Assembly: GCF_000828055.2 (NCBI RefSeq)
Contig: NZ_CP010523.2
Coordinates: 3,472,001-3,536,000, forward strand
DNA length: 64,000 nt
Reading direction: 5' to 3'
Origin: Klebsiella variicola
GTDB lineage: Bacteria > Pseudomonadota > Gammaproteobacteria > Enterobacterales > Enterobacteriaceae
The notes beneath the pieces were generated by a model that had not been told where the DNA came from, searched no databases, and was given only the letters and a program-made list of their open reading frames with translations. Below, in pieces: positions 46,463 through 53,207 of the stretch. Position 1 is the first letter of the stretch. Every line of letters begins with the position of its first letter. Made by a program: the position numbers and the translations under genes.

Positions 46463-46550
46463 GGTGAGGTGTCCGAGTGGCTGAAGGAGCACGCCTGGAA
46501 AGTGTGTATACGGCAACGTATCGGGGGTTCGAATCCCCCCCTCACCGCCA
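46463..46550 (+). tRNA. serX: tRNA-Ser(GGA), first copy
   Basis: An 88-base class II tRNA with encoded CCA, acceptor stem GGTGAGG / CCTCACC, long variable arm, T-loop GGTTCGAATCC and anticodon GGA at 46497-46499 (reads UCC and UCU serine codons). It is identical to the copy at 51518. The position next to ghrA matches E. coli serX. Confidence 0.97.
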
Positions 46551-46831
46551 TATTTTAAGAAGAGCTCGTACGCAAGTACGGGCTTTTTTTTCGCATGTGG
46601 CACTCTCCAGGGGGATGAGAACCCCCGACCGGGGTTCGACAACTGGCAACGCCAGTTGGACAGACCGCGCACGCAGTAAGCGGGCTGCCCCGCAGGGGCG
46701 AGCGAAGCGAGTCAATCCCCCCCTCACCGCCATATTTTAAGAAGAGCTCGTACGCAAGTACGGGCTTTTTTTCGTCTGTGGCACCCGCCGGGGGGATGAG
46801 AACCCCCGACCAGGGTTCGACAACTGGCAAC
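46551..46831 (+). repeat. tRNA-3'-end tandem repeat array A
   Basis: One full 182-bp unit (46551-46732) and one truncated unit (46733-46831) follow the first tRNA. Each starts with a terminator-like hairpin and carries several short hairpins; the full unit ends in AATCCCCCCCTCACCGCCA, an exact copy of the last 19 bases of the tRNA. The second unit breaks off after GGCAAC, where unrelated sequence begins. Confidence 0.93.
46563..46592 (+). terminator. Terminator after first tRNA-Ser
   Basis: Stem AGCTCGTAC / GTACGGGCT with GCAA loop and eight T. It begins the first repeat unit; a near copy recurs at about 46745-46774. Confidence 0.88.
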
Positions 46832-47029
46832 AGACATTACGCAGTATTGTCAAAGCCAGACTCTTTTTCACACGATTAACAGCGCAGCGAAGATGTTCGC
46901 CAACACTATCCCCTCTTCCGCTTTGAGCCACCCGGCATAACGAAAATCATATCGCTCGGGATGGTGTACGTTATGCATTAACGAAAAGTGCTTTGTTACT
47001 TGCGTATCGACCGTAATTCAATGTAAAAG
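46832..47029. other. Spacer before arginase-family gene
   Basis: AT-richer intergenic DNA between repeat array A and the operator of the next gene. A possible promoter, TTGCGT (47000-47005) and a weak TGTAAA (47022-47027), lies at its right end. Nothing else is recognised. Confidence 0.5.
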
Positions 47030-51447: not shown

Positions 51448-51476
51448 TTGACCGTTTTAACGCAACTCCCTATAGT
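51448..51476 (+). promoter_or_regulatory. Promoter of second tRNA-Ser gene
   Basis: TTGACC, 17-base spacer, TATAGT, then AGCGCCCCG discriminator. It has the same layout as the first copy but the flanking sequence differs, so the two genes are not a simple recent duplicate. Confidence 0.88.
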
Positions 51477-51517
51477 AGCGCCCCGTTGCCCACCCAAGGT
51501 GAGCAGCAAGACAATAT

Positions 51518-51605
51518 GGTGAGGTGTCCGAGTGGCTGAAGGAGCACGCCTGGAAAGTGTGTATACGGCAACGTATCGGGGGTTCGAATCCCCCCCTCAC
51601 CGCCA
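51518..51605 (+). tRNA. tRNA-Ser(GGA), second copy
   Basis: Identical in all 88 bases to the tRNA at 46463, with anticodon GGA at 51552-51554 and encoded CCA. It is followed by repeat array B. Confidence 0.97.
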
Positions 51606-52271
51606 TATTCAAGATGAGAGCCTGTACGCAAGTACGGGCTCTTTTCTTTTATATTCTCCGCTGGGGGGATGAGAACCCCCGACCGGGGTTCGACAACTGG
51701 CAACGCCAGTTGGACAGACCGCGAGCCTGCGAGCGGGCTGCCCCGCAGGGGCGAGCGAAGCGAGTCAATCCCCCCCTCACCGCCATATTCAAGATGAGAG
51801 CCTGTACGCAAGTACGGGCTCTCATCTTTTATATTCTCCGCTGGGGGGATGAGAACCCCCGACCGGGGTTCGACAACTGGCAACGCCAGTTGGACAGACC
51901 GCGAGCCTGCGAGCGGGCTGCCCCGCAGGGGCGAGCGAAGCGAGTCAATCCCCCCCTCACCGCCATATTCGAGATGAGAGCCTGTACGCAAGTACGGGCT
52001 CTTTTCTTTTATATTCTCCACTGGGGGGATGAGAACCCCCGACCGGGGTTCGACAACTGGCAACGCCAGTTGGACAGACCGCGAGCCTGCGAGCGGGCTG
52101 CCCCGACAAAAACGCCGGGAGCGTTTTTGAACAACGCCTGCGTTGGCCCCGCAGGGGCGAGGCCCATGGATGGGCCGAGTAACGGCGAGCGAAGCGAGTC
52201 AATCCCCCCTCACCGCCATATTTTAAGAAGAGCTCGTACGCATGTACGGGCTTTTTTTTCGCTTGTGGCAC
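51606..52271 (+). repeat. tRNA-3'-end tandem repeat array B
   Basis: Three full units (51606-51785 and 51786-51965, both 180 bp; 51966-52218, 253 bp) and one truncated unit (52219-52271). The full units end in a copy of the tRNA 3' end, CTCACCGCCA; units 1 and 2 match its last 19 bases and unit 3 has one C fewer. Internal hairpins include CAACTGGC / GCCAGTTG (51694-51712). Unit 3 holds two extra hairpin inserts. The final truncated unit is of the array A type (TTTTAAGAAGAGCTCG). A 318-codon frame passes through because 180 is a multiple of three. Confidence 0.94.
51618..51650 (+). terminator. Terminator after second tRNA-Ser
   Basis: Stem GAGCCTGTAC / GTACGGGCTC (GCAA loop) then TTTTCTTTT. 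Near copies start units 2 and 3, at about 51798 and 51978. Confidence 0.85.
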
Positions 52272-52330
52272 CGCAGACATCCCCGGGGTCGGCAGCAATG
52301 CCTCCCCCGGCTACCAGACCGTACCCGCCA

Positions 52331-52361
52331 GGTAGCCCGGCTAAGCGCAGCGCCGCCGGGA
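52331..52361 (-). repeat. REP-like palindromic element
   Basis: On the minus strand, CCCGGCGGCGCTGCGCTTAG followed by CCGGGCTACC has the stem and off-centre loop layout of an enterobacterial REP unit. A single unit lies between repeat array B and the phoH terminator. Confidence 0.7.
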
Positions 52362-52371
52362 GGATGCCCAA

Positions 52372-52400
52372 AAACGACAAAGCCCGGGCTAGCCCGGGCC
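52372..52400 (-). terminator. Intrinsic terminator after phoH
   Basis: GCCCGGGCTAGCCCGGGC is a perfect 18-bp palindrome (52382-52399), followed on the minus strand by TTTGTCGTTTTTG. Confidence 0.8.
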
Positions 52401-52418
52401 TTGCTCACAGTATGACGA

Positions 52419-53207
52419 TTAATAATAGGCTTTCAGCGTCCGCTGGCAGAGAGCCGAGCGCACGCAGTCATCGGTGGTGAAACGCACGATGCCGATCATC
52501 TCGTCTTCCTCAAAACGCGCCAGCGCATCACTCAGGCCAGACCTCACACCAGAGGGCAAATCGCACTGGGTGATATCGCCATTGACGATGACCGTCACGT
52601 TCTCCCCGAGGCGGGTTAAAAACATCTTCATTTGCGCTGCGGTCACGTTCTGGGCCTCGTCCAGAATCACCACCGCATTTTCAAAGGTACGTCCGCGCAT
52701 ATAGGCGAACGGCGCGATTTCCACCTTGCCGATTTCCGGACGCAGGCAGTACTGCATAAAGGAAGCCCCCAACCTTTTCACCAGCACGTCGTAAACCGGT
52801 CGGAAATAGGGCGCGAACTTCTCGGCGATATCTCCCGGTAAGAAGCCAAGATCTTCATCGGCCTGCAGAACGGGACGGGTAACAATAATTCTGTCCACAT
52901 CCTTATGGATCAGCGCTTCAGCTGCCTTCGCCGCACTGATCCAGGTCTTGCCGCATCCGGCTTCGCCGGTGGCGAAAATCAGCTGTTTATTGTCGATGGC
53001 ATTCAGATAATGCGCCTGAGCTTCATTGCGCGCCTCAATTGGGGAAGTATCACGGCTGTCCCGCGCCATGCCAATTGCTTCTACGCCACTCATTTGCACA
53101 AGCGATGTGACCGATTCTTCTTCACGCTGTTTATGGCTACGTGAATCCCGTCTCAGCACACGTTTTGCTTCACGACGAGCTTTGATCACTGCTTTTTGTC
53201 TTCCCAT
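52419..53207 (-). CDS. phoH: Phosphate starvation-inducible ATPase PhoH
   Basis: PhoH is a cytosolic P-loop ATPase related to the helicase core, induced by phosphate starvation in E. coli; its exact role is open. The 262-residue product begins MGRQKAVIKARREAKRVLRR and contains Walker A ATGEAGCGKTW (about 76-86) and Walker B VVILDEAQN (about 177-185). AAGGTG precedes the ATG at 53205-53207. The frame stays open another 90 codons to 53477; this longer form is close to the length given to E. coli PhoH in older annotation, so the start is not settled. Confidence 0.94.
   Translation of the reverse strand: MGRQKAVIKARREAKRVLRRDSRSHKQREEESVTSLVQMSGVEAIGMARDSRDTSPIEARNEAQAHYLNAIDNKQLIFATGEAGCGKTWISAAKAAEALIHKDVDRIIVTRPVLQADEDLGFLPGDIAEKFAPYFRPVYDVLVKRLGASFMQYCLRPEIGKVEIAPFAYMRGRTFENAVVILDEAQNVTAAQMKMFLTRLGENVTVIVNGDITQCDLPSGVRSGLSDALARFEEDEMIGIVRFTTDDCVRSALCQRTLKAYY

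Follow-up and report, generated by a model that had tools for sequence, protein, structure and literature searches.

The locus studied here is a tandem repeat array behind a tRNA-Ser(GGA) gene of Klebsiella variicola. It lies in a stretch of 64,000 nucleotides (nt) of the forward strand (RefSeq assembly GCF_000828055.2, contig NZ_CP010523.2, positions 3,472,001 to 3,536,000), hereafter the window, in whose numbering all coordinates are given (Table 1). The repeats resemble the tRNA-linked repeats (TLRs) of E. coli. Unit 1 begins at the first base after the tRNA, a hallmark position of TLRs, and the count of three full units and one truncated unit falls within the range of one to five per locus counted in E. 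coli K-12. Tandem Repeats Finder reported a period of 180 with 2.9 copies, 98% matches and a score of 1010 at 51587-52105, which is far above chance. A family search confirmed ghrA and phoH as the flanking genes, and a protein encoded between the two tRNA-Ser genes shows 100% identity over 228 residues to a protein of Klebsiella pneumoniae ATCC 13883, in keeping with the earlier mention of Klebsiella. An earlier note on this DNA, made from the sequence alone, had described tandem 180-bp units behind this tRNA, each opened by a terminator hairpin. The length is correct for units 1 and 2, and the truncated unit 4 is present, but unit 3 is enlarged to 253 nt by an insert; the terminator-hairpin scan recovered the hairpins of the three full units but did not call that of unit 4 on the forward strand. 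The host tRNA-Ser(GGA) named in that note was recovered by both ARAGORN and Rfam. Also borne out are the copies of the tRNA 3' end with CCA that close the full units, one C being missing in unit 3; they are longer than the acceptor end and run from the T-loop through CCA. Units 1 and 2 differ in only two adjacent bases, and the change lengthens the hairpin of unit 2 to 17 pairs. Two features had escaped the first inspection, an inverted copy of the host T-arm in each unit and related units behind the other tRNA-Ser of the window.

Table 1 Features of the two tRNA-Ser(GGA) loci in the window
Feature	Coordinates	Strand	Evidence or remark
Second tRNA-Ser(GGA)	46463..46550	+	ARAGORN; adjoins ghrA, like the annotated E. 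coli tRNA-Ser
Complete TLR unit behind second tRNA-Ser	46551..46732	+	46561-46732 87% identical to unit 1; RtT 34.2 bits
Partial second unit behind second tRNA-Ser (ends approximate)	46733..46835	+	46743-46831 84% identical to unit 1
Sigma-70-like promoter of the tRNA gene	51448..51476	+	TTGACC-17-TATAGT, 10/12 of consensus
Host tRNA-Ser(GGA) of the array	51518..51605	+	ARAGORN; Rfam tRNA 53.8 bits
Copied part of host tRNA, T-loop through CCA	51587-51605	+	19 nt
TLR unit 1, 180 nt	51606..51785	+	RtT model 1-130 at 51648-51785, 40.3 bits
Terminator-like hairpin opening unit 1	51616..51643	+	Hairpin scan; 51606-51655 = -24.9 kcal/mol, z -8.2
Inverted copy of host T-arm in unit 1, 5' strand of stem P1	51663..51682	+	90% complementary to 51576-51595
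Tail of unit 1, identical to tRNA 3' end, 3' strand of P1	51767..51785	+	19 nt
TLR unit 2, 180 nt	51786..51965	+	RtT 40.3 bits
Terminator-like hairpin opening unit 2	51791-51828	+	Hairpin scan
Inverted copy of host T-arm in unit 2	51843-51862		90% complementary to 51576-51595
Tail of unit 2	51947-51965		19 nt
TLR unit 3, 253 nt, tail one C short	51966..52218	+	RtT 27.7 bits
Terminator-like hairpin opening unit 3	51976-52003	+	Hairpin scan
Inverted copy of host T-arm in unit 3	52023-52042		90% complementary to 51576-51595
Insert in unit 3 (approximate extent), second, nested TLR-like core	52106..52180	+	
Tail of unit 3	52201-52218		18 nt, one C missing
Truncated unit 4, trailer and hairpin (52229-52257) only	52219..52271	+	

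The array is a real, well-formed feature of a known family, and it almost certainly represents tandem TLRs of the RtT type behind tRNA-Ser(GGA). Such repeats have reportedly been known in E. coli since 1978. The Rfam model RtT (RF00391) matched over its full length (1-130) at units 1, 2 and 3 and at the complete unit behind the 46463 tRNA-Ser, so that the likeness to the rtT repeats of tyrT, first noticed from the layout, goes beyond it. The tRNA-Ser that adjoins ghrA in E. coli K-12 is followed by two units annotated as RtT small RNA. Sites similar to unit 1 were found in 3780 of 5426 complete E. coli genomes, and the best site was 80-90% identical in 3737 of these 3780 records. The earlier note knew of no RNA described from this locus; for the E. 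coli counterpart, the K-12 annotation shows otherwise. Nor is a host other than tyrT a novelty, since TLRs occur at ten E. coli loci (PMC8144298) and we found units downstream of 5S rRNA as well as of tRNA genes for Tyr, Lys, Pro, Arg, Ser and Gln. According to the account in PMC8144298, published in 2021, E. coli K-12 has 22 TLRs at these ten loci, one to five per locus, whose final 18-19 bp are identical to those of the tRNA or rRNA gene before them. Three of them, behind 5S rRNA, are described there as transcribed, processed and bound by Hfq and CsrA; RrB was mapped as a 173-nt form whose 3' end lies 3 nt beyond the repeated sequence, with RNase E suggested as the nuclease, and Klebsiella is among the genera with RrB homologues. 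RtT RNAs of Actinobacillus are reported to give Northern blot signals (PMC4986893), and a tandem GA motif in RtT is reported from covariation (PMC7657543). Our searches of the open literature found no paper on a tRNA-located TLR in Klebsiella.

On average, the inverted copy fits its own host tRNA better than other hosts. The comparison covered 153 distinct units with an assigned host tRNA, from 165 kept of 184 (139 among the family-search matches listed, 16 from the K. variicola genome and 29 class-search loci for which a layout was made); excluded were seven units with Val nearest but an overlapping Lys tRNA, five with no tRNA, four that were short or contained N and three that overlapped a tRNA. 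The tail was exact over at least 15 nt in 123 of the 153. In gapped alignment with the reverse-complemented 3' end of its own host, the inverted copy scored 13.6 on average, compared with 9.2 for the 35 other host types; the sense strand, as a control, gave 9.4, and the core 5.4. None of 2000 permutations of host type scored as high as the own host, and the mean fractional rank was 0.07, where 0.5 is chance. The own host was best or tied in 99 of 153 units, and 30 of 36 one-per-type representatives ranked in the best tenth. Tracking was weak for Ser-GCT (five units, rank 0.27) and Ser-TGA (one unit, rank 0.24). The signal was weaker with a simple ungapped pairing score, which averaged 10.1 for the own host and 9.1 for others, put the own host strictly first in 12 of 153 units and was equalled in 0 of 1000 permutations; the gapped alignment, made with a longer stretch of the host 3' end, was clearer. 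The sense half of the T-arm that precedes the core also tracks the host, more weakly, with 2.79 of 5 bases compared with 2.04 and 0 of 2000 permutations as high, in the 145 of 153 units that a crude motif could parse. In the Ser array of genome G017 the T-stem of the tRNA differs, and inverted copy and tail differ correspondingly.

The copied parts also meet in the predicted fold. Units 1 and 2 fold at -62.9 kcal/mol (z -2.7), with stem P1 joining the inverted copy and the tail. Across units the stems covary, those of the core included. In an alignment of 56 units from many hosts, the proposed stems were paired in 89.4% of cells compared with 77.2% after shuffling, the covariation score was 0.300 compared with 0.126, and 190 cells were changed on both sides compared with 57.5 in the shuffles. 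This alignment was hand-picked (55 of 81 selected units and one E. coli unit), and its covariation leans upward because the 26 omitted units include atypical or longer inverted copies. For that reason, the count was repeated with all 82 units for P1, P4 and P5. P1 was then paired in 80.8% compared with 71.7% after shuffling, with 82 double changes compared with 27.8 (largest shuffle 47), and the core stem P4 in 89.5% compared with 76.3%. Within the 25 Ser-hosted units, nine pairs were changed on both sides compared with 3.8 in the shuffles; in this Ser-only alignment the fourth P4 pair is unpaired in 20 of 25. The earlier note had named free drift of the repeats without conserved structure as speaking against an RNA from this locus; on this point the result is in its favour, structure being conserved both across hosts and among the Ser-hosted units.

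Unit 3 carries approximately 74 inserted nt after 52105. The insert matches the cores in two Lys/Val operons of the K. variicola genome (80% identity, E 1.6e-9) and recurs at the corresponding position within units from five further genomes of the genus (G244, G249, G250, G255, G258). It has two GGA hairpin loops, equal to the predicted count in the ribosomal TLR of the K. variicola genome. We read it as a TLR core nested within a TLR core that would resemble the TLR of ribosomal operons. No description of host tracking by the inverted copy was found in the open literature, with the key older papers (Rudd 1999, Egan and Landy 1978, Bosl and Kersten 1991) lying outside the search; within this scope, host tracking and the nested unit 3 are candidates for points that have not been described before.

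The two tRNA-Ser loci appear to be connected by exchange. When the first units of these loci are compared, their likeness averages 93.9% within one genome (8 pairs) and 86.8% between genomes (160 pairs); pairs differing in length by at least 40 nt are not counted. This greater likeness within genomes suggests exchange between the loci. The trailer of unit 4 may be a further sign, as it equals the trailer behind the 46463 tRNA in 51 of 53 bases and that of unit 1 in only 16 of 53 (ungapped).

Matches to the RtT model of at least 34 bits lie in the K. variicola genome at tRNA-Tyr, tRNA-Pro(CGG), two Lys/Val operons, an Arg(ACG) operon and both tRNA-Ser(GGA) loci, with scores up to 131.9 bits at the loci other than those of the window. 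RtT matches were found in 33 of 60 genomes of the family (E <= 0.001), 24 of the 27 misses being genomes of 2.4 Mb or less, and in 34 of 185 genomes of the class, K. variicola included. At 28 of the 29 other class loci for which a layout was made, the unit stands behind a Gln, Tyr or Ser tRNA. At one distant locus (L167) an RtT-like unit has a tail ending in CCA, and ARAGORN found no tRNA in the fetched stretch. Loops like CAGGGAUG, which we take to resemble the CsrA motif, occur in the final core hairpin of some distant units, L167 and L182 among them. Behind a 5S rRNA gene of the K. variicola genome (locus L038, G000:C1:5268000-5269500), a 17-nt copy of the 5S 3' region lies 168 nt downstream of 5S, in the spacing and layout given for RrB in the account of PMC8144298; the RtT model had no match at E <= 0.1 in this TLR-like stretch.

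We propose, and consider it fairly probable, that the units are read-through RNAs which are cut out by tRNA-type processing and have an accessory role at most. Transcription from the tRNA promoter would partly pass the first terminator. The sigma-70-like promoter of the tRNA gene would thereby also serve the array, a consensus match alone being no functional evidence. Each unit would fold as an RNA in which the inverted T-arm copy pairs with the tRNA-identical tail to form P1, and this stem closes a core made up of several hairpins, as the covariation supports. The tail would let the enzymes that trim tRNA 3' ends release the unit as an RNA of approximately 130-180 nt, and the released RNA may be an accessory by-product, with a modest role at most, because species of the genus lack units. 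Recombination would maintain the tandem copies and the likeness of the two Ser loci. A stable processed RNA, as the earlier note had imagined it, is plausible and is regarded here as putative.

Several results weigh against this proposal or against its single parts. All four RtT scores of window units are below the curated gathering cut-off of 45 bits; a search at the gathering threshold did not list them, whereas a permissive E-value search did. Only 35 of 153 units score strictly highest with their own host among the 36 types, and the two Arg-hosted units do not track their host (rank 0.51). A rival pairing, in which the tail joins the sense T-arm half, is preferred by RNAalifold and covaries as well (score 0.315), so that the inverted copy is one of two candidate partners of the tail. 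Two of the eight within-genome pairs of Ser-locus units (83.7% and 83.3%) fall below the between-genome mean. In the account of PMC8144298, TLRs have no known function and the starvation role of rtT was withdrawn. The transcript of the array and its processing are predictions from DNA sequence. Moreover, when 39 tRNA-Ser(GGA) loci from 20 genomes of the genus were read, at least one complete unit stood at 24 and none at 15; of the latter, two are cut by a contig end, five have decayed remnants (L243 was judged by eye) and eight show none. Because 13 of the 37 readable loci hold no complete unit, the units are, to judge from this distribution, dispensable, and their loss fits weak or absent selection. 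In two genomes (G259, G261) the T-stem of tRNA-Ser(GGA) is changed and all four loci (L244, L245, L248, L249) are free of TLR units, a lack that may go back to a single event.

The serious rival to read-through RNAs with an accessory role is a neutral or selfish repeat, i.e. DNA debris that is kept alike by unequal recombination and whose stems remain complementary by template switching between inverted repeats, with no need for an RNA function; we think this possible, if rather doubtful. The 13 loci with no complete unit point this way, as does the range of 0 to 4 complete units in a row among the loci of the genus. The two-base difference between units 1 and 2 extends the terminator palindrome, as template switching would do. 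Some inverted copies exceed the length that can pair with the tail (18 nt exact in L179, 17 in L170), and exact runs of at least 12 nt occur in 14 of 153 units against their own host, compared with 19 of 1224 sampled comparisons with other hosts. In genome G253 (locus L232) units stand in both orientations, as would follow from an inversion within the array, and the rtT RNA tract of Salmonella is described as varying as a 175-bp variable-number tandem repeat (PMC2658671). However, core stems that are not derived from tRNA covary too, P4 in both the 56- and the 82-unit sets and P6 in the 56-unit set, and RtT matches in 34 of 185 class genomes are a wide distribution for debris that neither is selected nor continues to spread. 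Complementarity to the host could also be functional itself. In a more general form, which we hold to be improbable, TLRs would be mosaics of host copies, in which the tRNA 3' end is present once inverted and once as a sense copy that is split, both wrapped around a modular core; this core would pass from tRNA to rRNA hosts and back, nest within itself, as in unit 3, and be matched anew to every host it reaches, with the complementarity acting, for example, in strand exchange of read-through transcripts with the tRNA. As a regulator of tRNA maturation in particular, the inverted copy of unit 1 would pair with the upstream T-arm and the tail with the 5' acceptor strand, so that read-through transcripts could misfold the tRNA. 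The predicted minimum of tRNA plus unit 1 is indeed this swapped fold (-133.4 kcal/mol, compared with -125.0 with the native tRNA held, a gap of 8.4 kcal/mol), and the host tracking of the inverted copy would be expected. Nevertheless, we consider such a regulator quite unlikely, because, as transcription proceeds, the tRNA and the terminator hairpin would be the first to form, P1 inside the unit competes, and the prediction covers one locus and ignores modifications and tertiary contacts.

Two further explanations carry little weight beside a read-through RNA with an accessory role. A sponge for CsrA or Hfq, of the kind suggested for RrA, RrB and RrF, the TLRs of ribosomal operons, would be a surprise at this locus. 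Unit 3 has two GGA hairpin loops, both within the insert, whereas no such loop is present in unit 1, unit 2 or the 46463 unit, where several are expected of CsrA-binding ribosomal TLRs; with no GGA hairpin loops, a CsrA role for units 1 and 2 was mostly rejected. Lys-, Pro-, Ser- and Tyr-hosted units carry fewer GGA loops than shuffles, two Arg-hosted units carry more, and nine Gln-hosted units also have more (1.22 compared with 0.58). For 19 TLRs in E. coli tRNA operons, the account of PMC8144298 gives CsrA-binding scores below 0.01. A decoy for, or a scar of, integrases whose attachment sites are tRNA 3' ends is the explanation in which we place least belief. The tail covers the part of the tRNA gene that such integrases use. 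However, five of 40 listed E. coli records (H52, H53, H54, H63, H64) show an array whose tRNA has lost its 5' part. In the two that were inspected (H52, H54), a gene for a tyrosine integrase (with a frameshift in H52) is found immediately upstream, and of the tRNA only its final 14 or 19 nt are left beside the annotated array. Because only this tRNA end remains, the island appears to have entered the tRNA itself, as far as the near ends of the two islands examined tell. A TLR-like tail copy also stands behind 5S rRNA, and a decoy leaves the conserved core unexplained. In the 14-kb gap between the tRNA-Ser loci of G245, no open reading frame of at least 150 amino acids was taken for an integrase by eye, no family search being made; the gap in G258 was looked at for tail copies only.

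Two observations concern the annotation of the locus. Long repetitive reading frames cross the tRNA and the array (window 51470-52063 on the reverse and 51524-52480 on the forward strand); they run through it because 180 is divisible by three, and are probably spurious, so that the array is a caution to annotators. Farther downstream, the Rfam family Ysr251 matches with 161 bits at 52424-52617, on the strand opposite phoH. TLRs have been known for decades with no agreed function, and the host tracking together with the covarying core makes the question of function testable.

Among known systems, the tRNA-derived sponge 3'ETS-leuZ shares with the proposed RNA its origin from the trailer of a tRNA transcript (PMC8144298); it is set apart by its description, which in the account of that source mentions neither tandem units nor a tail copy. 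RrA, RrB and RrF are likewise RNAs that lie past a first terminator and have a host-identical tail, but their host is 5S rRNA and they have GGA loops, of which units 1 and 2 have none. The RtT RNA of tyrT (RF00391) is matched over the whole model with its parts in the same order, although the host here is tRNA-Ser and the scores are 27.7-40.3 bits against a cut-off of 45. With the TLRs of E. coli K-12, for example those behind the tRNA-Ser by ghrA, the array shares the position behind a tRNA, the tandem units, the host-identical tail of 18-19 nt and the terminator-like hairpin between units; it differs from them in sequence, with 87.3% identity to one K-12 unit, and in the second core nested in unit 3.
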